Below, one piece after another: positions 7,745-64,000 of a stretch of 64,000 bases of DNA. Where the stretch lies: NCBI RefSeq assembly GCF_010550675.1, contig NZ_JAAGOA010000012.1, positions 124,001 through 188,000 of the forward strand, read 5' to 3'. Made by a program: the position numbers and the translations under genes. Origin of the DNA: Phytoactinopolyspora halotolerans. GTDB taxonomy: Bacteria > Actinomycetota > Actinomycetes > Jiangellales > Jiangellaceae. Every line of letters begins with the position of its first letter. Position 1 is the stretch's first letter. The notes beneath the pieces are model-generated. The model ran no database searches. It saw only the letters and a list, made by a program, of their open reading frames with translations, and was not told where the DNA came from.

Positions 7745-10700
7745 TCAGCGCGCTTCTATGCTGCCCCGCCGCGCGGCCTTGGCTGCCACCACCGTCCCGA
7801 CGACGGCGGCCCCCAGCACGATGGTCCACGCCACCGGGCCCAGCGGCGTGCACCCGAGGAACTGACTCAATCCCGGCGTCTGCACCGCGGCGATCAGCGC
7901 CAGCACCGACGCCGCCGACGTACCCACCACCAGCTTGCTGTCCCGTCCGATCAGCAGGGTCTGCCCCAGCTGGGTCAAGACCAGCGCCGCCAGGCCCATG
8001 GTGCCGGCGCGCTGCCGCCGACCGGTCCAGCGGCCGGCGGTCCAGGCCAGAGTCGCACCCAGTGCGGTGGCGCCGCCGCGCACGGCCACCGCCCTGGTCA
8101 GAGACGAGCCGAGCAGGGAACCGACCGGCTCGTCGTCGTCCGCATCGTCGTTGCGTCCGCCCGCGACCGCGATCGCCAGCGCGGGGAACATGTCGGTGAG
8201 CATGTTGACCAGCAGCATCTGCCGCGTGTTGATCGGCGCCTGTCCGGCCAGCGTGGTCCCCAGCACCATGAAGGCGACCTCGCCCGCGTTGCCTCCCACC
8301 AGGATCGAGACCGCGTCCCGCACCCGTCGCCACAACGCGCGCCCCTCCAGCAGCGCATCATGCACCTGCCGCATGTCCGCGCCGCTCAACACCAGATCGG
8401 CGGCGGACTGCGCCGAGGCCGACCGACGCGCTCGCACGCCGATACCCACGTCGGCCATCCGGATCGCCGCGGCATCGTTGATGCCGTCGCCGATCATCGC
8501 CACCACCCGTCCGGACTTCTGCAGTGCGGCGACGATCTGCGTCTTCTGTTCCGGGGTCACCCGCGCGAAGACCGTGCACTCCGCCACCCGGCGGATCCGT
8601 TCCCGCTCCGGCATCCGCTCCAGGTCGGCGCCGGTCAGCACCTCGCCGTTGGCGATGCCGGTCTTCGCCGCCGTCGCCCGTGCGGTCTCCGGGTGGTCTC
8701 CGGTGACCATGATGGGGCGCACACCCGCGTCTGAAAGCCGGCGCACACCCTCCGAGGCGTCCGCACGAGGCGTGTCGGCTATGCCGACGAAGCCGAGCAG
8801 GGTCAACTCCCCCACCAGCGGCTCGACGTCGTCGGTCTCCTCCGGCAGGTCGTGCCGTCGCTCCGCCACGGCCAGCACCCGCAGCCCGTCGGAGGCCAGC
8901 TCCTCGGCCATCGCCGACGACGGTGCGTCGCGGCACATCGGCAGCACCGACTCCGGTGCTCCCTTGACGGCCAAGACCATGCCGTCGTCGTCCAGCCGGC
9001 CCAGCGTCGCCGAGTAGCCGCGCTGGGTCTGGAACGGCAGCTCGGTCACCGACTTCCAGCCGTTCCGGTGCACCTGCCCGGCCACGTCGGCATGCTCTAG
9101 CACGGCCCGGTCGGTGGCATGCGGCACGGACCCGACACGGTCCGGCGGCACATCCGGGCTGGCGTGTGCGGCGGCCGCGAGCAGCGACCGTCCCTCCGCG
9201 CCGTCCGGGTCCAGGTCCGCGTCGGCGGACGCCAGCCGGCTGACCCGAAGCCTGCCCTCGGTGAGCGTGCCCGTCTTGTCGAAACACACCACGTCCACCC
9301 GGCCGAGCGCCTCCAGTGCACGCGACGCCCGCACCAGGGTCCCCTGCCGCGACAGCCGCCGCGCTCCACCGGCCTGCGCCACCGTGGCCACCAGCGGGAG
9401 CCCTTCCGGAACCGCCGCCACCGCCACCGAGACGCCGGCCGCCACCGCGTCCCGGAGTGGCATGCCGCGCAGCATCCCGATACCGGTGACCGCGGCACCG
9501 CCGATCGCCGTCGCCGGTAGCGCCTTCTTGGTCACCTCGTGCAGTCTCGCCTGCACACCGGCGGGCCGAGGGGCGCTCCGCGCCGTCCGGGTGGCACGGC
9601 CGGCCTCCGTGGCCTGCCCCGTCGCCACGACGACGGCGTAGGCCGACCCGGTCAGCACGCTTGTCCCGTCGAACACCATGCCGCTGCGTTCCGCCACCGC
9701 CGCGCCCGGCGTCGCCTCCGTGTCCTTCGGCACCGGCATCGACTCGCCGGTGAGCGACGACTCGTCGACCTCCATCTCCTCCGCCGTCAGCAGCCGGGCG
9801 TCGGCCGGCACCAGGTCGGACCCGCGCAGCTCGATCACGTCGCCCGGCATCAGCCGGCGCGCCGGAACCTTCTCCACCTTCGCGTCGGCGAGCCGGTCCA
9901 GATCCTCGACGACGACGCGACGCGCCACCACCTCCTGCTCTGCCGTCAGTTCCCGCAGGGCGCGCTCCGCGCGCAGCCGCTGCACCCCGCTGAGCATCGC
10001 GTTCCCGGTCATGACCGAACCGACCAGAATGCCGTCGACCCCGGATCCGACGACGGCCGAGGCGACCGCCCCGACCGCCAGCACCGGTGTCAGCGGGTCA
10101 CTGAGCTCGTCCCGGACGGACCGGAGCATGCCGAGCGCGTCCCGGCTCTGCTCACCGATGACGCCCACACCGGGAACGGTGAGCTCCAGCACAGGGCGCA
10201 AGGCGCGCATCGGCCACGACCCGTCCGCGCCGTTCGGCGACGGCATCGACGCACGCCGCTGCAGCCGGTGGTAGACCTCGTGCGGGTCCAGCTCATGCCA
10301 GGCCACGTGCTCGACGCGTCGCGGCTCACCGAGCCGGGTGGCTCGCAGCCCGGCGGCCGTCCCGCGGGCCAGTGCCAGCAGCGCCGCGACCTGCACCGGA
10401 GCCAGCCCGAAGGAGGACAGCCGGGTGCGTGCGGCCACCAGGGCATGCAGCGCGCCGAGCGCGGAGCCGGCCTGCGCCAGGTGGACCGAACTCTCACTCA
10501 CCGCGCAGGCGACCGCCGCCGCGCGCAGCACGCGCCAGACGTCGGCCAATCCGTTCTCGCTCGCGACCAGGTCCGCGGACCACCAGGCCGCCGTGTTCGT
10601 CCCTGGGAGGGCGACGCCGACGTCGGCGGCGACCAGTGCCTCCTCGTCGTCCGCGGACACCACCAGCACGCCATGCCCCTCGCCCTGCAGCCGCCGGACG

Positions 10701-23039: not shown

Positions 23040-25415
23040 ATGGTCGCGCTGCTCGCCCTGCACCTCCTTGCGGCCGTGGCGGTCTGGCGACTGTCACGGC
23101 ACATCGGCGCCCGTTCAGCTCTGATCGGGGCCATCGCCCCCGCCGTGACATTGGGCTGGCTGCTCTACCAGGCGCCGGATGTGCTCGACGGGCGGCCCAC
23201 GGCAACCACCATGACCTGGGCACCCGAACTGGGGTTGAGCCTGCCGCTCCGGCTCGACGGCCTCGCACTCCTGACCGCCATGGTCATCGCCGCCGTCGGA
23301 ATGCTGGTGCTGCAGTACTCCCGCCACTATCTGGCCGGTCGGCACGACGGCCTGGCCAGGCTGCTGGTGGTGCTCGTCCTCTTCGCCGGGTCGATGCTCG
23401 GGCTGGTCCTCGCCGACCACGTGCTCGCGCTGTACGTGTTCTGGGAACTGACCACTGTCTGCTCGTTCCTGCTGATCGGCGCCGCGGACCGGGAGAGCCG
23501 CCGGGCCGCGATGCAGGCCCTGGTGGTCACCAGCGGCGGTGGCTTCGCGATGCTGCTGGGACTGCTCATGCTCGGCGAGCAGGCCGGCGACTACCGGATA
23601 TCCGCCATCCTGGCCGCGCCTCCGTCCGGCCCGTGGGTGGAGGCCGCACTGGTCCTGATCCTGGTCAGCGCCGTCGCCAAATCCGCTCAGGTCCCGCTGA
23701 CCGGCTGGCTCTCCGCCGCGATGGTGGCGCCCACCCCGGTCAGCGCGTACCTGCACGCCGCGGCGATGGTGAAGGCCGGCGTCTACCTGGTGGCCCGGTT
23801 CGCACCGGCATTCGAGGCGACGGCCGCCTGGCGGCCGATCGTGATCGTCGTCGGTCTGACCACGCTGATCGGCTCCGGCTGGTGGGCGCTGACCCAGCAC
23901 GATCTCAAACGGCTGCTCGCCTTCGGCACCGCCAGCCAGCTCGGCCTGATGTTCGTGCTGCTCGGGGCGGGAACCCGTACCGCCGCTCTGGCCGGAGCGA
24001 CGATGCTGCTCGCGCACGCGGCGTTCAAGTCCACGCTGTTCCTGGTGGTCGGCGCGATCGAGCATGAGGCCGGCACCCGCGACCGGCGTGATCTGTCCGG
24101 TGTGCGACACACCGCGCCGGCTCTGGTCGCCGTCGCCGCAGTGGCGTGCGTCTCGATGGCAGGGCTGCCGCCGACCCTCGGCTATCTGGGCAAGGAAGCC
24201 GCCTACGAGGCGTTCGTCGAGCCCTACCCGGCCGGCGAGTGGATCCTCGCGGGCATGGTCGCCGGGTCGGCGCTGACCGTCGCCTACACCCTGCGGTTCC
24301 TCGCCTCGCTGCTGGTGGACCGGGACGCCGACAGATTTCCGGCGCGGGCTCCCGGACCGGGCTTCACCGCCGCGCCCGCCGTGCTCAGCGGCGCCGGTCT
24401 GGCCCTGGGCCTGGCACCGCCGGTGGCCGACGACCTCGCCCGGCTGCACGCCCGCGCCTACAGCGCCACCGCCGACACCCACTACGAGCTGGCGCTCTGG
24501 CATGGTTTCACGCCGGCGCTGGCGCTCTCCGTCGTCACGGTCGCGCTCGGCGTCGCGGTGTTCATGGCGACGCACGTCCTCGTCCCGCGTGCCCGCTCCT
24601 TCGGCGGCACGGTAGCGGTCTCCGACCGGGCGTCGACGGCGAGCGCAGCCCTGGCCTCGGCGATCCGCACGGCGATCACCCGCACGCACACCGGTTCGCT
24701 GCCCCGCTACACGGCGATCGTGCTCCTCAGCGTCCTCGTCGTGCCCACCGCGGCGATGCTCGCCGACGACGTCTCACTCGCCTCCATCCGGCTGTGGGAC
24801 CGGACCTCGCAAGGCCTGGTGGGCGCCGCCACCATCGCCGCCTGCATCGCCGCGGCCGCGATTCGGCACCGGATCACCGCGATCCTGCTGGTCTCCGCCG
24901 TCGGATACCTGGTGGCCGTGCTGTTCGCCATCCACGGCGCGCCCGAGCTGGCCCTCACCCAGGTGCTCGTGGAGACCCTCACGGTACTGGTGATCCTGCT
25001 CGTCCTCCGCCGGAGCTCGGAACGTGCCGCCGCGTCGCCGCCGCTGCGCCAGAGCGGCCGGGCCGCGGTGGCCTTGGCGGTCGGCGCGGCCATGACGGTC
25101 GTCGCGCTGGCCGTCACCTCCAACCACACCCCGTCGCGGGTGGTGGACGACTTCTTCACCGCCACCGAGGAGGCCGGCGCCTCGAACGTGGTGAACACCG
25201 TGCTCACCGACGTCCGTGCGCTGGACACCATCGGCGAGGTCACCGTCTTGACGGTCACCGCCACCGGCGTCGTCAGCCTCGTGCTGGTCCGGCGCCGGAC
25301 CGGAGGACCTCCCCGGCCCACCGACACCAGACACAACGACACCAGACACAGCGGCACCAGACACAGCGGCACCAGACACAGCGACGACGACGCGACATCC
25401 GCCGAGGAACGATGA
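23040..25415 (+). CDS. mnhA: Mrp-type Na+/H+ antiporter subunit A
   Basis: 791 residues, some twenty membrane helices, related to NuoL. The helix-5 glutamate needed for ion transfer is present (YVFWELTTVCSFLL, near 136-138), as are GKSAQVPLTGWLSAAM-like Lys and the AAAMVKAG helix. The C-terminal MrpA domain (residues 570-700) is included. The complex exchanges Na+ for H+ across the membrane and sets internal pH. ATG 23040 is used; the ribosome-binding site is weak. The C-terminus carries four copies of a five-residue DTRHS-like repeat. First gene of a compact seven-gene operon. Confidence 0.9.
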   Translation: MVALLALHLLAAVAVWRLSRHIGARSALIGAIAPAVTLGWLLYQAPDVLDGRPTATTMTWAPELGLSLPLRLDGLALLTAMVIAAVGMLVLQYSRHYLAGRHDGLARLLVVLVLFAGSMLGLVLADHVLALYVFWELTTVCSFLLIGAADRESRRAAMQALVVTSGGGFAMLLGLLMLGEQAGDYRISAILAAPPSGPWVEAALVLILVSAVAKSAQVPLTGWLSAAMVAPTPVSAYLHAAAMVKAGVYLVARFAPAFEATAAWRPIVIVVGLTTLIGSGWWALTQHDLKRLLAFGTASQLGLMFVLLGAGTRTAALAGATMLLAHAAFKSTLFLVVGAIEHEAGTRDRRDLSGVRHTAPALVAVAAVACVSMAGLPPTLGYLGKEAAYEAFVEPYPAGEWILAGMVAGSALTVAYTLRFLASLLVDRDADRFPARAPGPGFTAAPAVLSGAGLALGLAPPVADDLARLHARAYSATADTHYELALWHGFTPALALSVVTVALGVAVFMATHVLVPRARSFGGTVAVSDRASTASAALASAIRTAITRTHTGSLPRYTAIVLLSVLVVPTAAMLADDVSLASIRLWDRTSQGLVGAATIAACIAAAAIRHRITAILLVSAVGYLVAVLFAIHGAPELALTQVLVETLTVLVILLVLRRSSERAAASPPLRQSGRAAVALAVGAAMTVVALAVTSNHTPSRVVDDFFTATEEAGASNVVNTVLTDVRALDTIGEVTVLTVTATGVVSLVLVRRRTGGPPRPTDTRHNDTRHSGTRHSGTRHSDDDATSAEER
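25323..25382 (+). repeat. 15-bp tandem repeat, four copies, in the mnhA 3' end
   Basis: Four 15-bp units (core CACCAGACACA) encode DTRHN, DTRHS, GTRHS, GTRHS at the very C-terminus of the MnhA subunit, after the last membrane helix. The near-identity at DNA level suggests recent expansion; the tail is probably cytoplasmic and tolerant of length change. Confidence 0.85.
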
Positions 25416-26334: not shown

Positions 26335-27866
26335 ACGGCGCCGTACCTCTGCTGGTGCTGGGCCCGCTGCTCGGCTCGGCGGTATCGCTGCTGCTGGGTC
26401 CGTGGCCGCGGCTCCAGCGCGCGCTGGGCGCGGTGGTGCTGACCGGATCGCTCGCGGTGGCGGCGAGCCTGCTGGTGGCCGCGGACGACACCGGTCCGGT
26501 GGTGGCCCGGCTGAGCGGCTGGGACGCTCCCGCCGGCATCACCCTGGTGGCCGACCGGCTGTCCGCGCTGGTGCTGACGATCGCATTGGCCATCTGTCTG
26601 GCGATCTTCGGCTACGCCATCGGGCAGGGTTCCGCGGAGGACCGCGTCGAACACGTGCCGTCCGTGTTCCATCCGACGTATCTCGCCCTCGTGGCCGGGA
26701 TCAACATGGCACTGCTCAGCGGTGATCTGTTCAACCTCTTCGTCGGGCTCGAGGTGATGCTGGCGTCGTCCTACGTGCTCATCACCCTCGGCGCCACATC
26801 CGAGCGGGTCCGGCTCGGGGCGATGTACATCGTGATCAGTCTGGGCGCCTCCATCGGGCTGCTCACCACGGTGGCACTGTTCTACGCCACCACCGGCACG
26901 GTCAACCTGGCCGACCTCTCCACCGTGCTCTCGGACGTGCCTCCCCCGGTGCGGACGGCCCTGCAGCTGATGCTGCTCCTGACGCTGGCCACCAAGGCCG
27001 CCGTGGTGCCGCTGCACATGTGGCTGCCGGACAGTTATCCGAGCGCGCCCGCGCCGATCACCGCGCTGTTCGCCGCATTACTCACCAAGATCGCGGTGTA
27101 TGCCCTGATCCGCACCCAGACGTTGCTGTTCCCGCGCGAGGAGCCGTGGCTGCTGCTCCTGGTCCTCGCCGGCGCCACCATGCTGGTCGGCGTCGTCGGC
27201 GGGCTGGTGCAGGACGACGCCAACCGGCTGCTGAGCTTCCTGCTCGTCGGCCATATCGGCTACATGCTGTTCGGGCTCGCCCTCGCCTCCGCGGAGGGCC
27301 TGCGCGGCAGCATCATCTATCTCGTCCACCACATGACCGCGCAGGCCGCCCTCTTCCTCGTCATCGACCTCGCACAGCGACGACGCGGCAGCACGTCACT
27401 GAGCGAACTGGGCCGAGCGACCGCCGCCGCGCCGGCGCTGTCCGGGCTCATCCTGATCGCGGCGCTGAACTTCGGCAGCGTTCCGCCGCTGGCCGGCTTC
27501 GTCGCGAAGCTCGCGCTGCTCCAGGCCGCCGTCACGGACGGGACCGCCGCCGTGATGGCGGTCGCGGCCGTCGCCGTTCTCGCGGCTCTGCTGACGCTTG
27601 CCGTGATGGGCCGGATCTTCGTCCAGCTCTACTGGGGTGCGCCGCCGGCCGAGCTGTCCGAACCGGACGGTGACGCCATCGACGTGCATAGCCGGACCTC
27701 GATGCGACTGATGCGCGGCTCGACCACAGTGGTGGTGTCCGCCGGGATCGTGCTCGCGGCGGCCGCGGGGCCGCTGGCCGCCGTCACCGGCCGAGCCGCC
27801 GAGGACCTGACCGTGCGCACGCCGTACCAGGAGGCCGTCCTGGGTGACCTCGGAGGGCTGCCGTGA
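26331..27866 (+). CDS. mnhD: Mrp antiporter subunit D
   Basis: 511 residues, about fourteen helices, related to NuoN/NuoM. The essential helix-5 Glu is present (LFVGLEVMLASSYVLI), as are the broken-helix Lys regions (TKAAVVPLHMWLPDSYPSAP; LLTKIAVYALIR) and the lipid-side HHMTAQAALFLV. Part of the ion-translocating core with MnhA. GTG start overlaps mnhC (GTGA). Confidence 0.95.
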   Translation: MNGAVPLLVLGPLLGSAVSLLLGPWPRLQRALGAVVLTGSLAVAASLLVAADDTGPVVARLSGWDAPAGITLVADRLSALVLTIALAICLAIFGYAIGQGSAEDRVEHVPSVFHPTYLALVAGINMALLSGDLFNLFVGLEVMLASSYVLITLGATSERVRLGAMYIVISLGASIGLLTTVALFYATTGTVNLADLSTVLSDVPPPVRTALQLMLLLTLATKAAVVPLHMWLPDSYPSAPAPITALFAALLTKIAVYALIRTQTLLFPREEPWLLLLVLAGATMLVGVVGGLVQDDANRLLSFLLVGHIGYMLFGLALASAEGLRGSIIYLVHHMTAQAALFLVIDLAQRRRGSTSLSELGRATAAAPALSGLILIAALNFGSVPPLAGFVAKLALLQAAVTDGTAAVMAVAAVAVLAALLTLAVMGRIFVQLYWGAPPAELSEPDGDAIDVHSRTSMRLMRGSTTVVVSAGIVLAAAAGPLAAVTGRAAEDLTVRTPYQEAVLGDLGGLP

Positions 27867-53114: not shown

Positions 53115-53453
53115 GTGCAGACCGTGTGGCTGTTGGTGCTGGCCGGCACCGTTGTGCTGGCTCTCTACGGAACGTCGCTGGCGCTGCGGGCGGCCCGCCG
53201 TCCGCTGCATGCCCTGCCGTATGAGTCCGGCGCCGTTCCCCAGCAGCATGCACTGTCCCGGTACCACGCACGCTGGTACGCGGTGACCGTCGTGTTCCTC
53301 GCCTTCGACATGGAGATGGTCTTCATGTATCCGTGGGCGGTCATCGTGGCCGAGAAGGGTGGCTCCGCCGTCGTCGAGATGTTCGGGTTTCTGGCGGTGC
53401 TGATGGTCGGGGTGGTCTACGCGTGGCGTGAGGGTGCCCTGCGATGGAGCTGA
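53115..53453 (+). CDS. nuoA: Complex I-like subunit A
   Basis: 112 residues with three helices. The conserved cytoplasmic-side loop is present (PYESGAVPQQHA; canonical YExG) and helix 2 has FLAFDMEMVFMYPWAV with the conserved acidic residues. GTG 53115 has GGAGGG close upstream. First gene of the complex I-like operon, overlapping the next gene by ten bases. Confidence 0.9.
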   Translation: MQTVWLLVLAGTVVLALYGTSLALRAARRPLHALPYESGAVPQQHALSRYHARWYAVTVVFLAFDMEMVFMYPWAVIVAEKGGSAVVEMFGFLAVLMVGVVYAWREGALRWS

Positions 53454-54817
53454 GGGGTCGGCTCGACCACCTGGCCCGGCGCGTCGTCGGCTGGGCGTTC
53501 GCACGGCCGACGGTCCTCGTCGCCGACTCCCCCGGGACCACCGTGTTGCGCTGGCAGCTGGAGGCGGAGCTCGACCGGCGTCGATGGCCGATCGCCCGCT
53601 CTCCTGCCGACGCCGACCTCCTGCTGGTGCTCGGTGAGCCGGGGCCGAATCTGCAGGCCGCCTTGGATGTGGTGTGGTCGCAGGTGCCGGCGCCGCGGCA
53701 GCGATGGGACATCCAGCCTGGTGCAGACATCAGTACGGCGCTCGACCGCTCGCACGCCGCGCTTCTCGACATGGCGCGGCAGCCGGAGCCCCGCACCGAC
53801 GACCCCGGTGAGTTCCTGCCACAGAACCGTTCCCACGACGAGCACCACCACGACGACGATCATGACGACGGCGGCAACGACGGCGATCACGACGACGGTG
53901 GCGACGGCCACCATCACGATCAGCAGGGCCATGAACACGGCGGACACGACGCGGCGGGCCTGCCGATGGCCGGCACCGCGCCGGATCGAGACGGGCTCGA
54001 GCTGGACTCGCTGCACGTGCGCCTCGGACCTGTCCTGCCGTCTTGGCCGACCGGTCTGGTGATCGAGGGGCGCATGCAGGGCGACGTGCTCACCGGCGTG
54101 CACGCATCGTGGATCGATCGGCCCGCTCCGCGCAGACCGGGAGACCCGGGCGACCCTGACGATCCGGGAGGCTTGAGCGGCTTGCGCGACGCGGGCGGCG
54201 CGAGCGGCTTGCGCGACGCGGGCGGCGCGAGCGGCTTGAGCGACCCGGCCGGCGTGAGCGGCTTGAGCGACCCAGGCGGCGTGAGCGGCTTGGGTGCCTG
54301 GAGCGACCTAAGCGCGGAGGACGTGACGCTGCTGGACTGGCTGGACCGACTGGCCCGGTTCCTCGACGTCGCAGGCTGGCCCGCCGCCGCCACACGGACC
54401 CGGCGCGTCCGTCATGACGTGCTCCGTGGCGGCACCGTCAACGACGCACGTGCAGACGGCTCCGCTCGGCGTACTGTCCGCCGGATCCGGCGTTCCGCCA
54501 CGTTGCGGTGGTCCGTCGGCGGCATCGACGCTGTGCTGGACCGGGTGCACCAGTGGTGCGACCACGTCCTGGACGGTGTCGCGAACTCTCGCGGCACGAC
54601 TGGCTCTGAAGGCGACGCGGCGGGCCCTCCCGGCGGCGCGGCAGGTTCCCCGCGCACGTGGACCGACGTCGAAGCACTCGTCGACGGGCAAGACCTGGCG
54701 GCGATCCGACTGATCGTGGCCAGCCTCGAGATCGACACCGACGGCGGGTCCGGCGCATCGACCCAGCCGACACCATCCACCGCCGGCCAGACACAGATGG
54801 GCGGGGCAGATGAGTGA
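53444..54817 (+). CDS. NuoB/NuoD-like fusion protein lacking recognisable cluster ligands
   Basis: 457 residues. Residues 20-110 resemble NuoB in pattern (ADLLLVLGEPGPN, then VVWSQVPAPRQRWDI, cf. NuoB adLlivtG and yxQmPeP..vi), but no cysteine is present where cluster N2 would bind. Residues 131-169 are a His/Asp/Gly-rich linker. From 188, LDSLHVRLGPVLPSWPTGLV parallels the NuoD start (vnfGPqHPstHGvlr) without its His, and helical segments with LLDWLDRLARFLDVAG follow as in NuoD. Residues 245-280 are 9-residue repeats. It takes the position of NuoB-NuoD between NuoA and NuoH. Likely the connecting module of a complex I-like assembly without redox function. Homology by eye, not by search. Confidence 0.5.
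   Translation: MELRGRLDHLARRVVGWAFARPTVLVADSPGTTVLRWQLEAELDRRRWPIARSPADADLLLVLGEPGPNLQAALDVVWSQVPAPRQRWDIQPGADISTALDRSHAALLDMARQPEPRTDDPGEFLPQNRSHDEHHHDDDHDDGGNDGDHDDGGDGHHHDQQGHEHGGHDAAGLPMAGTAPDRDGLELDSLHVRLGPVLPSWPTGLVIEGRMQGDVLTGVHASWIDRPAPRRPGDPGDPDDPGGLSGLRDAGGASGLRDAGGASGLSDPAGVSGLSDPGGVSGLGAWSDLSAEDVTLLDWLDRLARFLDVAGWPAAATRTRRVRHDVLRGGTVNDARADGSARRTVRRIRRSATLRWSVGGIDAVLDRVHQWCDHVLDGVANSRGTTGSEGDAAGPPGGAAGSPRTWTDVEALVDGQDLAAIRLIVASLEIDTDGGSGASTQPTPSTAGQTQMGGADE
54176..54283 (+). repeat. 27-bp tandem repeat, four copies, in the NuoB/D-like gene
   Basis: Units at 54176, 54203, 54230 and 54257 share AGCGGCTTG at the start and encode SGLRDAGGA twice, SGLSDPAGV and SGLSDPGGV; a fifth partial unit follows. 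The first two units are identical. The repeat lies in a linker between two folded parts. Confidence 0.9.
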
Positions 54818-55725
54818 GGCATATGGGTGAGGCAGCGCTCGTCCTGCTCGTCGGGCTCGGCCTCGGCGCTGTGTTCGCCGCCACCGACCACGCGGTGCTC
54901 ACAGCGGACGCGCACGGGATCGGTGTCCCCATCCGGCGTGCCACGCGCCTGCTACTCACCCAGCGCCGCACCACTCTGGCACCGGATCGGCTGCTGTGGC
55001 GCATCGGCTGCGTAGCAGTGCCGCTGCTGGCGTTCGGTTCGCTCGCGGTCGTGCCGATCACCGGGTCCAGCCTGCTCTCCACCACCGCGGATCTGGTCTG
55101 GTTCAACACGATGGAGGTGCTGCTCTGGGGCGCCGTGTGGCTGGCCGGCTGGGGCCCGAACGCCGTGCATGCGCTCACCGGCGGCTATCGGTTCCTCGCC
55201 CAGGGCCTGGCCTACGAACTGCCGCTGATGTTCGCCATCATCACCGCCGGTCTCGGCGCCGGCTCGCTGAATGCCGAATCCGTGGTCGCGGCGCAGGACG
55301 GCATGTGGTTCGTCGTCACCATGCCGGTGGCGTTCGCCGCGTTCCTGCTGGGTGCCGCCGGGTTCGCGTTCTGGGGCCCGCTCTCCGCGCCGGCCGGCGC
55401 CGACATCGCCGGCGGGGTGATGTCGGAACTGTCCGGCGTGGACCGGCTGTCGGTGGAGGCCGGCCGGGCCGTGTTCCTGGGTTCGGCGGCGGCCATGGCG
55501 GCGACGCTGTTCCTCGGTGGCGGACACGGGCCCTGGCTACCCGGCACGGCATGGCTGCTCATCAAGACACTGCTGGTGATCGGCGCGATGATACTGGCCG
55601 GCCGGCGGATGCCGGTGGTGCGGCCCGAGAGGTTCATGGACGTGGCCTGGATCGTGCTGATACCGGCGACGCTGGTGCAGGCGCTGGCGGTGGCTCTACT
55701 CGTTATCTCCGGGTACTACGGCTGA
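54814..55725 (+). CDS. nuoH: Complex I-like subunit H with altered quinone-site loop
   Basis: 303 residues, about eight helices, shorter than most NuoH. FLAQGLAYELPLMFAIITAG is the diagnostic region. The loop that in NuoH reads ExxRxPFDLPExExE is here WGPLSAPAGADIAGG: the Pro and the following IAGG are kept, most acidic residues and the Arg are gone. Those residues line the quinone entry and the first proton path. GTG 54814 overlaps the previous stop (GTGA); ATG 54823 is possible. Confidence 0.8.
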   Translation: MRHMGEAALVLLVGLGLGAVFAATDHAVLTADAHGIGVPIRRATRLLLTQRRTTLAPDRLLWRIGCVAVPLLAFGSLAVVPITGSSLLSTTADLVWFNTMEVLLWGAVWLAGWGPNAVHALTGGYRFLAQGLAYELPLMFAIITAGLGAGSLNAESVVAAQDGMWFVVTMPVAFAAFLLGAAGFAFWGPLSAPAGADIAGGVMSELSGVDRLSVEAGRAVFLGSAAAMAATLFLGGGHGPWLPGTAWLLIKTLLVIGAMILAGRRMPVVRPERFMDVAWIVLIPATLVQALAVALLVISGYYG

Positions 55726-55741
55726 CACGGGAGGAGGCCCG

Positions 55742-56305
55742 ATGCTGACCGACGTCACCCTGGCGGTCCTGGGCGTGCTCGCCGTCGCGGCGGGCGGAGC
55801 CGTGTTCACCGTCGACTCGATGGCGCGCGCCACGTATGCGCTGCTTGCCTCGTTTCTGGCGGTGGCCGGGATCGTCCTGACGCTCGACCTCACCTATCTG
55901 GCCGTCGTCACGGCGCTGATGATGACGATGGAGATGGCCATCATGGGCGTGTTCATGGTCATGTTCATGATGAACCCGGGCGGGCTGATGCCGATGACCA
56001 TGATGCACAACACCCGGGGCGCGGCCGCCGTCGGCGTCGCGGTCTTCGCCCTGCTCACCACCGGCATCTGGACCATCGACTGGCCCGACGCCCGAGGCCG
56101 TCCCAGCCGGGACAGCACGCATCAGCTGGCCGAGGCGCTCATGGGTAGCCACATGCTGGTGATGGTGGTGGTCGCAGCCGCACTGTTCGCCACCATCATC
56201 GCCGGAACCGTGCTGGCCACGCACCGCGGCCGCTACGACCGGTTCGGCCCGAACCTCGACGCACGTCCGCCGCGCGATCCCATCCCCGGAGGGCTGCCGC
56301 GATGA
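55742..56305 (+). CDS. nuoJ: Complex I-like subunit J
   Basis: 187 residues with five helices; the Met-rich third helix (ALMMTMEMAIMGVFMVMFMM) occupies the place of the pi-bulge helix of NuoJ. GGAGG precedes ATG 55742. It overlaps nuoK by ATGA. The unusual density of Met in this helix is notable. Confidence 0.8.
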   Translation: MLTDVTLAVLGVLAVAAGGAVFTVDSMARATYALLASFLAVAGIVLTLDLTYLAVVTALMMTMEMAIMGVFMVMFMMNPGGLMPMTMMHNTRGAAAVGVAVFALLTTGIWTIDWPDARGRPSRDSTHQLAEALMGSHMLVMVVVAAALFATIIAGTVLATHRGRYDRFGPNLDARPPRDPIPGGLPR

Positions 56306-56607
56306 TGCTCGAGATCCTGCTGACGTTCGCCGCCGCCTTGATCGGTGTCGGCCTGTTCGGCGCCTTGTCCCAGCAGTCCATCGTCATGATCATGATGGGT
56401 CTCGAACTCGCGGTGAACGGCGTGATCGTGGCGGCCGCCTCGGCATGGTATTTCCTCACCCCGGCGGCGCCGGACGCTCAGGTGCTCGTCGTTCTCGCGC
56501 TGGTCGTGATGGCGGTGGAGATGGCGATGGGGTTCGCCGCGACGGTGGCGATCTACCGGGCACGGCAGGTCGACACCGTCGACGACGCCAAGGACCTGCG
56601 CGGATGA
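56302..56607 (+). CDS. nuoK: Complex I-like subunit K
   Basis: 101 residues, three helices. The two conserved Glu of NuoK are present: GLELAVNGVIVAAA in helix 2 and VMAVEMAMGFAATVAIYR in helix 3. ATG overlaps the nuoJ stop. Confidence 0.9.
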   Translation: MMLEILLTFAAALIGVGLFGALSQQSIVMIMMGLELAVNGVIVAAASAWYFLTPAAPDAQVLVVLALVVMAVEMAMGFAATVAIYRARQVDTVDDAKDLRG

Positions 56608-56616
56608 GGCCGCACC

Positions 56617-58551
56617 ATGCCCGCCGCTGAATCGTCCGTGCTGGCGATGCTGGTGCTGCTCCCCGCGGCGGCCGGCACTGCGCTCCTGGTGGCCGGCCGG
56701 CATGCCGACCGGGCGGCCGGGTCGGTCGCGGCCGCCGCCACGATCACCGTCACCGGGCTCGCCGTCGTCGCGGCGGACATCCGCCCGGCGGTGTCCGCTC
56801 CGTTCGTGCGGACGGTCGATTCGGGTGCGTTCGCCCTGGCAGTCGACGGCCTTTCCGCGGCGATGCTGGTGATGCTCGGGTTGACCAGCCTGGCTGTCGT
56901 CGCGTTCGGCACCGTCGACCTTCCGGCGGACGCCGCTCGCGCACGCTTCTTCGGTTTCCTGCTGCTGTTCGTCGCCGCGATGTCGGTCACGGTGACCGCG
57001 ACGACCCTCCCGGCACTACTGCTGGGGTGGGAGGTGATGGGCGCCATGTCCTACGCGCTCATCGGCTTCCACTGGCGGACGCCCGGCACGGTGCGGGCCG
57101 GGACGACCGCGTTCGTCACCACGCGCAGCGCCGACACCGGACTGTACATCGCGGCCGGCGCCGTGCTGGCCGGTTCCGGCACCCTCGGTCTCGACGCCCT
57201 GTCCGGCATGGACAACGGATGGCGGCACGTCGCGGCCGCCGGCATCCTGGTGGCCGCCTTCGGCAAGTCCGCGCAGCTGCCGTTCTCGGGGTGGCTGTCC
57301 GCCGCGATGCAGGGTCCCAGCCCGGTCAGCGCGCTGCTGCACTCGGCCACCATGGTGGCCGCGGGAGGTTATCTCCTGTTGCGGGCCCTGCCGCTGCTGG
57401 AGATCACCGCCTGGGCGGCGACCACCACGGCCTGGGTAGGAGCGGTCACCGCACTGGTCCTCGGTGCCGTGGCCTGCGCGCAGTCCGATCTGAAACAGGC
57501 GCTGGCGGCAAGCACCGCCGCCCAGATCGGTTTCGTCGTCCTGGCCGCCGGGGCAGGCGCGAGCGCCGGCGGCCTCGGACACCTGCTCGCCCATGCCGGC
57601 GTCAAGGCGGGACTGTTCGTGGCGGTCGGCGCCTGGCTGACCGCCCTCGGCACCAGCGGCTCAGCCGGGCAGCGCGGGGCCGGCCGGCGCTACCCCGCCA
57701 TGGGCACGGCCGCTGCGCTCGGCTGCGCGGTCCTGGCCGGTGTGCCGCCGCTGGGTCTCTGGGCCACCAAAGACGAGGTGCTGGCCGGCGTGGACGGCGC
57801 GGCGTTGCACATCACCGCACTCGCCGCCGGCGTGCTGGCCGCCGTGTACGCCGGCCGGATTCTGGCGACGGTGCTCGGCCCGCCGTCGCCCGCCGGAGCG
57901 CTGCACACGGAGGAGCCGGGGACGCTCCGGGTACCGGGTGGCGCCGTCGCCGTCGCGACCGGCCTGATCGTCGGGGCGGGAGGACTGGGCGTGGTGGCCG
58001 TTCCGGCCGTCGCAGACGCCGTCAAGGACCTCCTCGATGCGCCGGGTGAGCCGGCCCCGTCGGCGTCGATGATGGTGCTGTCCGGCGCCCTCGCCGTCGG
58101 CGCGCTCACGGCGACGCTGGCCCGTCCACGGAGGATCACCGAGCTCGATCGGACCGTACTGGCACGTTGGGCCGCGCTCCCCCGGCTGCTCTCCGCCCGG
58201 CCGGTCGCGGCGGTGGCGCGGTTCGCCGCCGCGGTCGACGACCACGGCATCGATCGCGCCGCACGGCGTGTGGGGGCCGGCGTCCGACGGCTCGCCGGAC
58301 GCATCGGCGCCGCCGACGGGGCAGCCGACCGGCTGGTGCACGACGTGGCCGGAAGTGTCCAGCTGGCCGCCACCACCGCGGCGACCGGCGACGTCACCAG
58401 GGTCGACCGCGTCGTCCGCGGTGTGGCGTCGACGTTGCGAGCCATCGGCGAGTCCGCGCGCCGACCACAGAGCGGGCTGCTGCACCAGTACTACGCCACG
58501 GCCGCCGCCGGTCTCGGGGCCTTGTTCCTGCTGCTGCTCGTGGTGCGTTGA
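56617..58551 (+). CDS. nuoL: Complex I-like antiporter subunit L
   Basis: 644 residues, some fifteen helices and a C-terminal lateral segment. The helix-5 Glu is kept (LLGWEVMGAMSYALIGFHW), as are the Lys region FGKSAQLPFSGWLSAAMQGP with the following His (ALLHSATMVAAGG) and ATKDEVLAG. A soluble-looking insert before the last helix (about 500-610) is rich in Ala, Arg and Asp. It should translocate H+ or Na+. Starts nine bases after nuoK. Confidence 0.9.
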   Translation: MPAAESSVLAMLVLLPAAAGTALLVAGRHADRAAGSVAAAATITVTGLAVVAADIRPAVSAPFVRTVDSGAFALAVDGLSAAMLVMLGLTSLAVVAFGTVDLPADAARARFFGFLLLFVAAMSVTVTATTLPALLLGWEVMGAMSYALIGFHWRTPGTVRAGTTAFVTTRSADTGLYIAAGAVLAGSGTLGLDALSGMDNGWRHVAAAGILVAAFGKSAQLPFSGWLSAAMQGPSPVSALLHSATMVAAGGYLLLRALPLLEITAWAATTTAWVGAVTALVLGAVACAQSDLKQALAASTAAQIGFVVLAAGAGASAGGLGHLLAHAGVKAGLFVAVGAWLTALGTSGSAGQRGAGRRYPAMGTAAALGCAVLAGVPPLGLWATKDEVLAGVDGAALHITALAAGVLAAVYAGRILATVLGPPSPAGALHTEEPGTLRVPGGAVAVATGLIVGAGGLGVVAVPAVADAVKDLLDAPGEPAPSASMMVLSGALAVGALTATLARPRRITELDRTVLARWAALPRLLSARPVAAVARFAAAVDDHGIDRAARRVGAGVRRLAGRIGAADGAADRLVHDVAGSVQLAATTAATGDVTRVDRVVRGVASTLRAIGESARRPQSGLLHQYYATAAAGLGALFLLLLVVR

Positions 58552-58584
58552 GCGATGTCATCCATGGCGATGAGGTGAACACGG

Positions 58585-60177
58585 ATGCTGACGGTCGTCG
58601 TCTTCCTGCCCGCCGCGGTGGCGGTTCTGCTGCTGGCGATACCCCGGATCCCGGACCGGCTGTGCCCGCACGTCTGGGTGGCGGCGGCGGCGCTCGACGT
58701 CGTCCTCGTCGGCTGGCTCTGGTGGCGCTACGCCGACGAGGAAGCCGGCGGAGGTATCGCGTTCGAGGCCAGACTCGACTGGATCCCCACGGTGGAGGCG
58801 GGTTACCACGTCGGCGTGGACGGGGTCTCGCTGCCGCTGATCGCGATGTCCGCCGTGCTCTTCCTCGCCTGTGCCGTCTGGTCGGTACGTGAACGGCAGC
58901 GGCCCCGCACCTACGCGGCGCTCTTCCTCTTCCTGCAGACCGTCTGCCTGGGCGCGTTCGCCGCACTCGACCTGATCCTGTTCTTCGTCTTCTTCGATCT
59001 GAGCATCGTCGCGATGTACTTCGTCATCGCCGGCTGGGGCCACGGCGACCGGCGGCGCAGCGCGCTGAAATTCTTCCTCTACACCTTCCTGGGTTCGCTC
59101 GCGTTGCTGGTCGGTTTCATCGGTCTCTTCCTGGGCGCCGACGAGCGGACGTTCGACATGGTGGCGCTCGCCGCCGACCCGCCGCTGCGGGACTCGCCGC
59201 TGGCCGCCGGCCTGGTGCTGCTGGCGATCGGCCTGGGGCTGGCGATCAAGACCCCCGTGTTCCCGTTCCATACCTGGCTGCCCGACGCGCACACGGACGC
59301 TCCCGCGCCCGGATCGGCGATCCTCGCCGGCGTGCTGCTGAAGCTCGGCACGTACGGGTTCGCGCGGATCGCGATGCCGATGCTGCCGGAGGCGTGGGAG
59401 CGATGGGCCATGGTGGTGGTGATCGTCGGCGTGGTCAGCGCCATCTGGGGTGCGCTGGTGGCACTTGCGCAGACCGACGCGAAGCGGATGATCGCCTACA
59501 CGTCGGTCAACCACATGGGATATGTGCTGCTCGCTCTCGGTGCCGTCGGGTTGGCCGGGCAGGCCGACACCGACGCGGGTGCGGTCGCAGCCGTCGGCGC
59601 GATCGTCCAGATGGTCAGCCACGGCTTGCTCACCGGCGCGCTCTTCCTGCTCTCCGGGGTGCTGTGGACGCGCGGGCGCACGCACGAGTTCAGCCAGTGG
59701 GGCGGTCTCGCCCGGCCCGCGCCCGTCTTCGCCGCGTGCCTGGCCGTCGCCGCGTTCGGGGCACTCGGGCTGCCCGGACTGTCCGGTTTCATCGCTGAGT
59801 TCCAGATCTTCGCGGGAGCCATCCAGGCCGCGCCGGTGCCCGCGATCATCGCCGTCAGCGGCATCGTGATCACCGCCGGTCTGTTCCTGCTCGCGCTGCA
59901 ACGCCTGCTCACCGGAGACACCGCGATACCGGCGCGAGTTCCGGTTCGCGCCGGAGCCGGAGCACGACGGTTCGATGACGGCGACGGCGACGATGGCGGC
60001 GAGGACCGTGGCCGCAGCGAGAACAGAACCGGCCCCATGCCGGACTTGAGCCGCTGGGAGGTCGGCGCCGTCGTCCCGCTACTCGCGCTGTCCGTGCTGA
60101 TCGGGGTGGCGCCGCGGGCGCTGCTGAACGTGGTCGAGCCGGCGGCCACGACGCTGGCATCAGTGTTCGGCGGGTGA
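58585..60177 (+). CDS. nuoM: Complex I-like antiporter subunit M
   Basis: 530 residues, fourteen helices. Key Lys regions are kept (IKTPVFPFHTWLPDAHTDAP, GVLLKLGTYGFAR, QTDAKRMIAYTSVNHMG). The helix-5 acidic residue is Asp instead of Glu (FFDLSIVAMYF against FWEMMLVPMYF). An acidic loop of 35 residues (DDGDGDDGGEDRG) is inserted before the last helix. ATG 58585 is used; no strong ribosome-binding site. Confidence 0.9.
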   Translation: MLTVVVFLPAAVAVLLLAIPRIPDRLCPHVWVAAAALDVVLVGWLWWRYADEEAGGGIAFEARLDWIPTVEAGYHVGVDGVSLPLIAMSAVLFLACAVWSVRERQRPRTYAALFLFLQTVCLGAFAALDLILFFVFFDLSIVAMYFVIAGWGHGDRRRSALKFFLYTFLGSLALLVGFIGLFLGADERTFDMVALAADPPLRDSPLAAGLVLLAIGLGLAIKTPVFPFHTWLPDAHTDAPAPGSAILAGVLLKLGTYGFARIAMPMLPEAWERWAMVVVIVGVVSAIWGALVALAQTDAKRMIAYTSVNHMGYVLLALGAVGLAGQADTDAGAVAAVGAIVQMVSHGLLTGALFLLSGVLWTRGRTHEFSQWGGLARPAPVFAACLAVAAFGALGLPGLSGFIAEFQIFAGAIQAAPVPAIIAVSGIVITAGLFLLALQRLLTGDTAIPARVPVRAGAGARRFDDGDGDDGGEDRGRSENRTGPMPDLSRWEVGAVVPLLALSVLIGVAPRALLNVVEPAATTLASVFGG

Positions 60178-61628
60178 GCGGCAGCATGGTCGACCCGTTG
60201 GTTCTTCTGCCGGAGTTCCTGCTGCTGGCCGGCGCCCTGGCCGCATTGCTCCTGGGCCTGTGGACACCGCGTGACCGGCAGCGGCGCGCCGCCGTCATCG
60301 CCGTCGTCGCGTGCGTCGCCAGCGCCGTCGCGACGGCGGGAGCGTTGCCGGGTGGCACCGAGACGGCGTTCCACCACACGTGGATCGTCGACGGCACCAC
60401 GGGCGTCACCCGCCTCGTCGTCGCGGCCGCCCTGATCGCGGCGGTCGTCCTCTGCCGGTCCGCGTTCGCCCACCATGACCGCGAGACTGAGGCGTACGTG
60501 CTGGTCCTGCTGGCCGGCATCGGCGCCATCGCGCTCAGCGCCAGCGCCGACCTTCTCGTGCTGCTCGCGTCCTATCTGCTCGCCAGCATCCCGCTGTATG
60601 CGCTGGTGGGCTTCGCCAAGGATGCACGCGGCGTCGAAGCGACCCTGAAGTACTACCTGATGAGCGCACTGGTCGGAGTACTGATGCTGCTGGGTGCGGC
60701 GACGCTGATGCTGGCCGCCGGACAGACCCGCTACGACACCCTCGAGGCGAGCCTGCCGCAGGCGCCGACCGGCGTGGTCGCTCTCGGCGCCCTCGCCGTG
60801 CTCGCCGGCATGGCGTTCAAGGCGGGCGCGGTGCCGATGCACTTCTGGCTGCCGGACGCCGCCGCGGGCGCCAGTCCGGCCGCAGCCGCGGTGATCACCA
60901 CCGTGCCCAAGGTCGGTGCGCTCGCCGCCGCCTTCCGCCTGGTGGACATGCCGTTCGCAGATGTGGACGCGAACGTGCCGGTGCTCGTCGCGGCGATCGC
61001 GGCGGCCAGCATGACGCTCGGGAATCTCGCCGCCTTCGGGCAGACCGAGGTGCTGCGGCTGCTCGCCTACTCCAGCATCAGCCAGGTCGGATACGTGCTG
61101 ATGGCGGTGGCGGTCGCGGCCCGCAGTGATCTGGCCGACGCAGGGCTGGCGGTCTACCTGGCCGCCTACGCCGTCGCCAACGTAGGTGCGTTCGCCGCTG
61201 CCGCCGTCGCGCCGCGGGCCCGCACCATCTCCGAGTGGGCCGCGTCCGCCGCCCGCAGCCGATGGCTGGTGCTGAGCCTGACGGTGTGCCTGCTCAGCCT
61301 GGTGGGCACGCCGCCGACCGGCGTCTTCGTCGGAAAGCTGGCCGTCTTCACTGCCGCAGGCGACGGCGGATTCGGCTGGCTCGTCGTGCTGGCAGCCGTC
61401 AACACGGTGGCGAGCCTGTTCTACTACCTGCGCTGGATCGCGCCCGCGTTCACCCAGCACACGGCGTCGGCGGCGAGCAGCGCAGCCGACGTCACCCCCG
61501 CCGACGTCACCCCCGCCAACGTCACCCCAGCCCAGAGCGCTCCCGCCGCCGTCGTGCACGTTACGGCGGCCGGCTCTGTCGTGCTGGGCGTGCTGTCCGG
61601 TCTGTGGCTCGCCACCACAGTCGGTTAG
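60174..61628 (+). CDS. nuoN: Complex I-like antiporter subunit N
   Basis: 484 residues, fourteen helices. The Lys of the broken helices are kept (MAFKAGAVPMHFWLPDA, VPKVGAL, VFVGKLAVF). At the helix-5 position normally Glu, the aligned sequence LLASYLLASIPLYALVGF has a neutral residue (Leu by my alignment). The stretch before the last helix contains ADVTP repeats. GTG 60174 overlaps nuoM (GTGA); ATG 60186 is an alternative. Confidence 0.85.
   Translation: MSGSMVDPLVLLPEFLLLAGALAALLLGLWTPRDRQRRAAVIAVVACVASAVATAGALPGGTETAFHHTWIVDGTTGVTRLVVAAALIAAVVLCRSAFAHHDRETEAYVLVLLAGIGAIALSASADLLVLLASYLLASIPLYALVGFAKDARGVEATLKYYLMSALVGVLMLLGAATLMLAAGQTRYDTLEASLPQAPTGVVALGALAVLAGMAFKAGAVPMHFWLPDAAAGASPAAAAVITTVPKVGALAAAFRLVDMPFADVDANVPVLVAAIAAASMTLGNLAAFGQTEVLRLLAYSSISQVGYVLMAVAVAARSDLADAGLAVYLAAYAVANVGAFAAAAVAPRARTISEWAASAARSRWLVLSLTVCLLSLVGTPPTGVFVGKLAVFTAAGDGGFGWLVVLAAVNTVASLFYYLRWIAPAFTQHTASAASSAADVTPADVTPANVTPAQSAPAAVVHVTAAGSVVLGVLSGLWLATTVG
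61485..61529 (+). repeat. 15-bp tandem repeat, three copies, in nuoN
   Basis: GCCGACGTCACCCCC twice and GCCAACGTCACCCCA once encode ADVTP, ADVTP, ANVTP in the loop before the last membrane helix. Confidence 0.85.
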
Positions 61629-62006: not shown

Positions 62007-64000
62007 GTGGGCCTCAAAACGTGGCTGGATCATTGGCCCGTGTATCGCCAGCTCACCGGGACGGATCCGCTGGGCCGCGGAGCCGCCAGCAAGTCCCGGC
62101 GCAGGGCCGAGCTGACTCCGCGCACAGCCACCGCCGAACGCGTGGTCAAGTCCGTCTGTCCGTACTGCGCCGTCGGCTGCGGGCAGAACGTCTACGTCGA
62201 CGACGGCACGGTCACCCAGATCGAGGGCGACCCGGACAGCCCCATCTCCCGTGGACGGCTCTGTCCCAAGGGCGCGGCCAGTGAGCAGCTGGTGAACTCC
62301 CCGACGCGGGAGACCAAGGTCCGCTACCGCCGGCCGTACGGCACCGAGTGGGAAGACCTGGATCTGGACACCGCGCTCGACATGATCGCGGACCGGGTGA
62401 TCCAGACCCGTCGGCGGACCTGGCAGGACACCGACGAGCACGGCCGGTATCTCAACCGGACGATGGGCATCTCGCACCTGGGCGGCGCGACGCTGGACAA
62501 CGAGGAGAACTACCTCATCAAGAAGCTCTACACGGCGCTCGGGGCGATCCAGATCGAGAATCAGGCGCGCATTTGACACTCCTCCACCGTCCCCGGTCTG
62601 GGGACCTCGTTCGGGCGCGGCGGCGCCACCACCTTCCAGCAGGACCTGCAGAACTCTGACTGCATCGTCATCCAGGGCTCGAACATGGCCGAGTGCCACC
62701 CGGTCGGGTTCCAGTGGGTGATGGAGGCGAAGCGGCGCGGCGCCACGGTGATCCATGTCGATCCCCGGTTCACCCGCACCAGCGCCCTCGCCGACGCGCA
62801 TGTGCCGCTGCGCGCCGGCTCCGACATCGCGTTCCTCGGCGGCCTGATCAACTACGTCCTCACCAATGAGCTGGACTTCCGCGAGTACGTGGTCGAGTAC
62901 ACCAACGCCGCGGCGATCGTCGACCAAGAGTTCCAGGACACCGAGGACCTGGACGGGTTGTTCTCCGGGTTCGACCAGGAGAGCATGACGTACAACCCGC
63001 TGAGCTGGGCCTATGAAGGCGCACGCGCCACCGCGGCGGCGGGGCACCGGGACATGCCCAAACCGGAGGCGGGCGCTGCGGCGGCGGAGGAGGAAGCCGG
63101 TGCCGGCGCCGGCGAGGAAGCGGGCTCGGGGGGACCTCCCGTTCCCGGCAAGCCCGAGCGCGACCCGACCCTGCAGCACCCGCGGTGCGTCTACCAGATC
63201 CTCAAGCGGCACTTCTCGCGCTATACGCCGGACGTCGTCGAGCAGATCTGCGGCGTGCCCAAGGATCAGTTCCTGCAGGTCGCGCATGCGGTGACGCGCA
63301 GCTCCGGGCGGGACAAGACGACGGCGTGGGTGTACTCCGTCGGCTGGACCCAGCACACCGTCGGCGTCCAGTACATCCGCACCGCGGCCATTCTTCAGCT
63401 GCTGCTGGGGAACATCGGCCGGCCCGGTGGCGGGATCCTGGCCCTGCGCGGCCACGCGTCGATCCAGGGGTCCACCGACATCCCGACGCTGTTCAATCTG
63501 CTCCCCGGCTACATCCCGATGCCGCACGCGCACCACGACGAGACGCTGGAGGAGTTCGTCGAGTCCGACGCCGGCAGCACCGGATTCTGGGGCAACATGC
63601 GCGCGTACGCGGTCAGCCTGCTCAAGGCCTGGTGGGGACCGCACGCCACGGAGGACAACGACTACTGCTTCGGATACCTGCCCCGGCTCACCGGCGACCA
63701 CGGCACGTACCGCACCGTGCTCGACCAGATCGCCGGCAAGGTGCAGGGGTACTTCGTGATCGGCGAGAATCCCGCCGTCGGGTCGTCGAACGCCAAGCTG
63801 CAGCGGCTCGGATTGGCCAACCTGGAGTGGCTCGTCGTCCGTGACCTGCAGATGATCGAGACCGCGACATTCTGGCAGAACGCCCCAGAGCTGGAGACCG
63901 GCGAGCTGGAGACGGAGCGGATCGGCACCGAGGTGTTCTTCCTGCCGGCCGCGTCGCACACCGAGAAGGACGGGACGTTCACCAACACCCAGCGGCTGCT
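62007..64000 (+). CDS. fdhA: Selenocysteine-containing formate dehydrogenase alpha subunit (partial, runs off the window)
   Basis: Molybdopterin oxidoreductase with an N-terminal [4Fe-4S] site (CPYCAVGC near 52-59, then RLCPKG), followed by IENQARI and an in-frame TGA at 62574-62576 (codon 190), then HSSTVPGLGTSFGRGG. In FdnG/FdoG/FdhF-type enzymes exactly this position is the Mo-binding selenocysteine (ARV-U-H). The frame stays open for 1.4 kb beyond the TGA and keeps matching the family. A SECIS hairpin follows. It oxidises formate to CO2. GTG 62007 has GGAGG nine bases upstream; ATG 62002 is out of frame. A Glu/Ala/Gly-rich insert lies near 352-378. Read through the TGA, this is one gene; a standard caller would split it. 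Confidence 0.93.
62589..62605 (+). promoter_or_regulatory. Bacterial SECIS element (apical stem-loop)
   Basis: GTCCCC (62589-62594), loop GGTCT (62595-62599), GGGGAC (62600-62605): a perfect six-pair stem with the GGUCU loop found in the E. coli fdhF SECIS. The loop begins 18 bases after the TGA, the same distance as I recall for fdhF. It should bind SelB-tRNA(Sec) and recode the UGA. Confidence 0.9.

Follow-up and report, generated by a model that had tools for sequence, protein, structure and literature searches.

A complex I-derived operon of Phytoactinopolyspora halotolerans with many relatives among copper genes

The window analysed here is a stretch of 64,000 nucleotides from Phytoactinopolyspora halotolerans (contig NZ_JAAGOA010000012.1, positions 124,001 to 188,000). 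At 53115-61628 on its plus strand, the open reading frame (ORF) list shows eight adjoining or overlapping genes, which encode NuoA-like, NuoH-like, NuoJ-like, NuoK-like, NuoL-like, NuoM-like and NuoN-like proteins and, in second place, a protein that we call BD (Table 1). Pfam names seven of the eight products (A, H, J, K, L, M and N), and neither the ORF list nor Pfam places a nuoC, nuoE, nuoF, nuoG or nuoI among the operon ORFs. The initial annotation had described this gene content, with a B/D-like fusion, and the ORFs, Pfam and the profile and model of BD agree with it. Elsewhere in the same genome, a different contig carries a canonical nuo operon, in which Pfam identifies NuoB, D, E, F, G, H and J as well as an I-type ferredoxin, and in which NuoC was assigned by reading the ORF; the operon at 53115-61628 is therefore an extra set. 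No separate nuoB, nuoC, nuoD or nuoI was seen beside it, and the canonical set is an operon of its own.

Table 1. Genes of the operon and the adjoining formate dehydrogenase gene, in window positions, with the residues found in aligned members of the family.
Feature	Position	Strand	Identification and residues
nuoA-like	53115..53453	+	Pfam; D65/E67 retained; H45, H51, M68 and M71 in 72/72 of the family
BD, 457 residues	53444..54817	+	Predicted NuoB fold aa 1-115, His/Asp-rich linker about aa 120-175, predicted NuoD fold aa 176-436
nuoH-like	54814..55725	+	Pfam; E135 and E205 retained; E. coli E241 position is Arg218 (Arg in 81/81)
nuoJ-like, Met-rich third transmembrane helix	55742..56305	+	Pfam; Met positions by family alignment
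nuoK-like	56302..56607	+	Pfam; E35 in 81/81, E73 in 80/81; M29, M31, M32, M70 and M74 in 81/81
nuoL-like	56617..58551	+	Pfam; E139, K217, K330 and K385 in 66/66
nuoM-like	58585..60177	+	Pfam; K222, K253 and E405 in 77/77; Glu of fifth transmembrane helix is Asp138
nuoN-like	60174..61628	+	Pfam; K246 and K388 in 74/74, K216 in 70/74; Glu of fifth transmembrane helix is Leu135 (74/74)
fdhA, selenocysteine FdhA, neighbour	62007..64000, past window end	+	In-frame TGA at 62574-62576; probably not part of the system

BD has no Pfam match up to E = 1, and in NCBIfam it matches nuoB_fam at E = 0.09, one low-complexity entry and nothing else. A profile built from 49 BDs matches NuoB/NDUFS7 chains of the Protein Data Bank (PDB) with E = 2.6e-6 over profile positions 46-93. 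When an AlphaFold model of BD (predicted local distance difference test, pLDDT, 77; predicted template modelling score, pTM, 0.77) was aligned with known structures by VIA-align, residues 2-115 matched the NuoB chain 8ud1_1B (Z 10.9, root mean square deviation 2.6, 111 residues aligned) and residues 176-436 matched NuoD of mycobacterial complex I, 8e9h_D (Z 13.3, deviation 6.7, 223 aligned). Unrelated helical rows in the same list reach Z 10 to 11.8, and the NuoD half therefore rests also on PF00346 (Complex1_49kDa), which recognises it in two deep-branching BDs (1.1e-14 and 2.7e-10). A Foldseek search with BD returned NuoB chains as best matches at E = 0.02 and none below 0.001; the fold claim is based on the VIA-align Z values and the sequence profile, not on Foldseek. 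From model and profile together, BD is a predicted fusion of a NuoB fold with a NuoD fold.

In complex I, cluster N2 and quinone meet between NuoB and NuoD. The initial annotation had reported that the NuoB-like part of BD lacks the N2 cysteines and the NuoD-like part the His of the GPQHP motif, and both losses extend to the family. No Cys occupies an invariant or nearly invariant column of the 49 aligned BDs; some Cys falls within the first 115 residues in 43 of 75, at scattered places, and the canonical NuoB of the same genome carries GLACCAIEMM. At the His column of GPQHP, 72 of 75 BDs have Leu, and Met, a gap and His occur once each. The window BD reads GPVLP here, and by motif the His is lost from 92 of 94 BDs. 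The acidic loop of NuoH, which had been described as replaced, is thinned but not gone. At the positions that we take to be D213, E216, E220, E228 and E241 of E. coli NuoH, the 81 aligned sequences show Asp in 15; Glu in none; Asp in 78 and Glu in one; Glu in 80; and Arg in all 81, respectively. The residues set the operon apart from an ordinary complex I.

The two halves of BD are joined by a linker, which in the window is rich in His and Asp and has pLDDT below 50 at residues 131-170. It could be measured in 87 of the 94 BDs, where the median is 9 His and 65 linkers have at least 5. Seven of the 94 BDs (L119-L125, all of family f43) carry the motif CxMHP...CxxCxM in the linker, two of them twice, and in both of the f43 (Rubrobacter-family) BDs tested Pfam finds the heavy metal binding domain HMBD (PF19335; L120 and L123; E values 2.4e-27 and 2.1e-14). 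The BDs with an HMBD match are also the ones that match Complex1_49kDa. In three alphaproteobacterial plasmid copies the gene at the BD place is annotated as 'heavy metal-binding domain-containing protein'.

A putative metal-binding linker between the NuoB and NuoD halves could place copper where electrons once passed, and a report on a complex I-like cassette of Marinobacter suggests that copper redox might power it (PMC8233155). An equivalent pump in the present family, with BD-bound Cu+ as the electron donor in place of N2 and its oxidation coupled to ion pumping, is nonetheless improbable. The GPQHP His is missing from nearly all BDs, the NuoH Glu has become Arg throughout, there is no conserved Cys for an electron chain, and the step from Cu+/Cu2+ to menaquinone would be uphill by the redox potentials.

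The membrane subunits retain much of the proton path. Residues common to all aligned members include D65/E67 of NuoA (72 sequences), E35 of NuoK (81) and E135 of NuoH (81). The antiporter subunits had been thought to look functional, and their Lys and Glu residues are indeed mostly intact (Table 1), but the Glu of the fifth transmembrane helix (TM5) is replaced by Leu in 74 of 74 NuoN sequences and by Asp in 75 of 77 NuoM sequences, the other two having a gap.

These losses are accompanied by a gain of methionines. In TM3 of NuoJ and the loop that follows, M60, M61, M65, M68, M72, M76, M77 and H89 occur in all 81 sequences, M85 and M87 in 80 and M74 in 72; 13 NuoJ proteins drawn from both phyla that carry the operon (see below) have M27, M60, M61, M65, M68, M72, M74, M76, M77, M85, M87, H89 and M138 in common. 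Alignments with PDB entries, read by eye, show Val, Tyr, Ile and Leu at most of the TM3 Met places in E. coli and Thermus NuoJ. Further invariant Met residues stand beside the E-channel acids in NuoK and NuoA. Compared with one canonical set, that of the same genome, the mean Met content of the family is 9.6% vs 1.9% in NuoJ, 5.6% vs 2.5% in NuoA and 8.8% vs 6.1% in NuoK, whereas in H, L, M and N it lies below that of this single set. The NuoJ proteins of Halomonas and Roseivivax also have His-rich C-terminal tails.

A scan of GTDB contigs found 414 stretches that encode a NuoH relative, of which the best 80 loci were analysed. The gene order given in the initial annotation recurs exactly in 67 of these best 80, and four Streptomyces loci of the set show it; of the remaining 13, twelve are truncated where the contig or the locus stops, and the last, L072, shows an additional, stray match to NuoM. 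BD was found at E<=1e-6 in 33 of 396 genomes drawn from the phylum, and 16 of 20 stretches from the drawn genomes have all eight genes in order (the exceptions are two stretches that stop with their contigs, one that shows BD by profile only and one with a better match to NuoM at the NuoL place). The operon also lies on plasmids of Actinomycetota and Pseudomonadota, the latter in Halomonas, Sulfitobacter, Paracoccus and Roseivivax; 28 plasmid records have a NuoH match and further ones were found, and none of 42 viral pattern matches encodes a relative. That the gene order recurs in two phyla indicates that the operon is not a product of chance. NuoF is found alongside in 45 of 49 operon genomes, and the four without a NuoF match (two Arthrobacter, Cryobacterium and Humibacter) show that the operon can exist without canonical complex I. 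The operon is present twice per genome in two Blastococcus and in one Geodermatophilus. The group had been called poorly described and actinobacterial: poorly described it is, but it extends to Pseudomonadota plasmids and is partly in print.

A decaying, non-functional remnant of complex I would explain the lost redox residues, a relative with only a fragment of BD, and the IS3-family transposase that one Pseudarthrobacter plasmid copy has at its BD gene (L142, 9003-10165). This is hardly credible for the family, in which the eight genes, their order and dozens of invariant residues have been kept across two phyla.

Clustering of the genes that flank the operon at the 80 loci shows that the commonest neighbours are HMA-bearing P-type-ATPase-like proteins (25), DUF305 proteins (21), CsoR (18) and ArsR-type proteins (15), followed at 11 loci each by an unnamed protein, an MFS transporter and a Csp-like DUF326 protein; the names P-type ATPase and MFS were assigned by reading. 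At least one of seven copper-gene classes is present at 42 of the 80 loci and at least two at 33, with the HMA and CopA classes overlapping because CopA carries HMA domains. The operon flanks hold 18 CsoR genes, at 15 of 49 loci, against 0.31 expected from 141 CsoR matches in the 49 genomes, where flanks were searched with phmmer, whole genomes with Pfam, and genome sizes were rounded. At L120 a copA-like gene, csoR, an HMA protein gene and a csp-like gene precede nuoA, all on one strand. Twelve of 15 annotated plasmid copies sit among copper or heavy-metal genes, in settings that include Halomonas, Sulfitobacter, Roseivivax, Acuticoccus, Paracoccus, Arthrobacter FB24, Pseudonocardia and Curtobacterium. 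At the canonical nuo locus of the same genome, a weak control with only about 4 kb of flank, no copper gene was found.

Operator patterns point the same way. A CsoR-type pattern precedes nuoA in 10 of 76 stretches (shuffled sequences: mean 0.25, maximum 2) and a BlaI/CopY-type pattern in 5 of 76 (shuffles: 0); both patterns follow known operator shapes and were written after some of the palindromes had been seen, and the 76 include two repeats of genomes already in the set. A further palindrome, CATCCG-N10-CGGATG, stands before nuoA in L032, L043, L044, L046, L049, L057 and others and is perhaps an ArsR-type operator; it was noticed on inspection of the sequences. Ten of the 76 stretches contain the motif CATCCG-N-CGGATG (shuffled sequences: mean 1.1, maximum 4), which was chosen after the data were seen and was given no weight.

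The link to copper, which the initial annotation did not contain, is thus drawn from copper and metal genes, operators and the BD linker, and for the family it is well supported. An unknown partner module had been envisaged for the membrane arm; no extra conserved module was found in the gene order, and it is these copper-related features that recur. We consider it very probable that the family is copper-linked and works with neither NADH nor quinone. The suggestion that the arm is an ion transporter acting without N2 and the quinone-site His is upheld as the most likely account, and the window copy would share the copper link of its relatives.

Several observations weigh against reading the operon as a copper machine. 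The window itself has no copper gene found near the operon (Csp was not searched for there) and no CsoR- or BlaI/CopY-type operator found upstream of nuoA, and its BD has neither an HMBD Pfam match nor the HMBD motif. In the wider collection, 47 of 100 loci are without any tested copper class, three of the 15 plasmid copies (Gordonia, Rhodococcus and Pseudarthrobacter) have no metal gene nearby, and the loci are related by descent, so that their counts are not independent. Fewer than 3 His are present in 18 of 87 BD linkers, and two of the 94 BDs, L055 and L118, retain GPxHP. Five of the eight NuoJ TM3 Met positions fall within 80 degrees, and a helical stripe of the eight is not significant (P=0.38). 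The distribution is patchy: BD is present in 6 of 60 relatives and, apart from the window's own genome, in none of four members of the genus. Four of the five further BD-bearing relatives have the whole operon, and the fifth, a member of the same taxonomic family, has only a piece of BD and none of the remaining genes of the operon (L027, 5160-5795).

With these points in view, we are about half persuaded that the operon is a complex I-derived membrane machine for homeostasis of copper or a similar soft metal, in which Cu+ transport would be coupled to protons; the coupling of Cu+ transport to protons, taken by itself, we rate slightly below an even chance. BD would serve as a scaffold on the cytoplasmic face, retaining the NuoB and NuoD folds and bearing the metal-binding linker, and would pass Cu+ into a route lined with methionines at the site of the former E-channel, formed by NuoA, TM3 of NuoJ and NuoK. 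Export of Cu+ would then be powered by protons flowing back through NuoL, NuoM and NuoN. More tentatively, complex I may have been rebuilt as a proton-driven exporter of Cu+ or soft metals, with a metal-binding BD replacing N2 and quinone, the E-channel, on which energy coupling in complex I centres, serving as a methionine-lined metal path, and plasmids spreading it with copper resistance in Actinomycetota and Pseudomonadota.

The arm might instead be induced by copper without transporting it, exchanging H+ for Na+ or K+ under metal stress to maintain ion balance or the proton motive force, with the BD linker only sensing metal and gating the arm. The antiporter Lys and Glu residues, mostly retained, would suit this, as would the copper operators and neighbours, and marine or osmotic adaptation is the role given in PMC3314556 and PMC6676996. 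We regard such an antiporter as unlikely, though a serious contender, since it leaves the invariant Met residues of NuoJ, NuoK and NuoA unexplained and does not account for the higher Met content that these three, unlike NuoH, L, M and N, have relative to their canonical counterparts. The model we prefer is Cu+/H+ transport, the one that covers the linker and the methionines as well as a proton path left largely intact.

It has long been asked how, in complex I, quinone chemistry drives proton pumps that lie far away from it. An arm that keeps the pumps, lacks N2 and the quinone-site residues and is enriched in Met at the E-channel is a natural test of which parts coupling needs. If Cu+/H+ transport is true of the family, it would be a new kind of transporter in bacterial copper defence and would put genes reported as markers of marine adaptation in a different light.

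Downstream of the operon, fdhA begins 378 bases past nuoN. It ends at position 6318 of the stretch L002 (window-equivalent 65318) and is followed by fdhB and nrfD; together, window 62007-64000 and L002 3007-14176 hold fdhA, fdhB, nrfD, selB-, selA- and selD-like genes (SelA-, SelB- and SelD-like names assigned by reading) and a tRNA-Sec in one region, within which a GPR1/FUN34/YaaH-type gene was also seen. The membrane arm could in principle be the pumping module of this selenocysteine formate dehydrogenase. Besides its closeness here, an fdhF lies near the Halomonas copy, and formate_DH_Act (E<=1e-100) is found in 22 of 33 BD genomes vs 103 of 363 others (Fisher P=1.8e-5). This co-occurrence comes largely from f43, however, falling to 7 of 17 outside it; fdhA-fdhB-nrfD is near the operon in one of the 80 GTDB loci (L095), with weak FdhA-like matches in two more, and the window formate dehydrogenase has an NrfD of its own. 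We therefore consider a formate-driven pump very improbable, and formate dehydrogenase was rejected as a partner: it adjoins the window operon but not the operons of the family at large. Elsewhere in the window, two more genes with the PF00361 antiporter module (23412-24221 and 26718-27572) perhaps belong to an Mrp-type operon, and a weak P-type ATPase match lies far from the operon on the minus strand (8270-9886).

Part of this family is already in print, as a marine 'partial nuo operon' and as one copper-linked cassette of Marinobacter. Seven membrane nuo genes of Salinispora have been described as a marine-adaptation operon (PMC3314556), and the 'partial nuo operon' was found again in Streptomyces (PMC4018334, PMC6676996) and Kocuria (PMC6002675); PMC4018334 reports all seven nuo genes in Streptomyces griseus. 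Its printed order, nuoA, hypothetical protein, nuoH, J, K, L, M and N (PMC6676996), is that of the window operon, a comparison made on the gene order as printed. The role published for these genes is marine or osmotic adaptation; the passages covered from these papers leave the hypothetical protein unnamed and draw no role for copper in these genes. PMC6676996 also mentions a strain from copper-rich mine water. For Marinobacter atlanticus CP1, PMC8233155 describes a complex I-like cassette, nuoADHJKL with one hypothetical gene, within a copper operon and co-expressed with copper genes. By description rather than by sequence, it resembles the family in its complex I-like genes flanked by copper genes and differs in being described without nuoM and nuoN. 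The literature searched, which included few subscription journals, yielded neither a description of the BD fusion or of the methionines nor a paper joining the marine and copper reports.

Like respiratory complex I (NDH-1), the operon has homologues of A, H, J, K, L, M and N with most of the proton-path residues, and its BD has predicted NuoB and NuoD folds. Unlike NDH-1, it is without NuoC, E, F, G and I, the NADH-oxidising E, F and G being present in the canonical operon of the genome; it has no N2 Cys, has lost the GPQHP His, has Arg for Glu in NuoH and has a Met-rich NuoJ, with a putative metal-binding linker in many relatives. It shares PF00361 antiporter modules with the Mrp Na+/H+ antiporter, but MrpE, F and G are absent from the operon genes and NuoA/H-like and BD genes are present instead, parts that Mrp is not known to have. 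The energy-converting hydrogenase-related (Ehr) complexes are complex I-like, with a large subunit that has lost its metal ligands and an Ech-type gene set.

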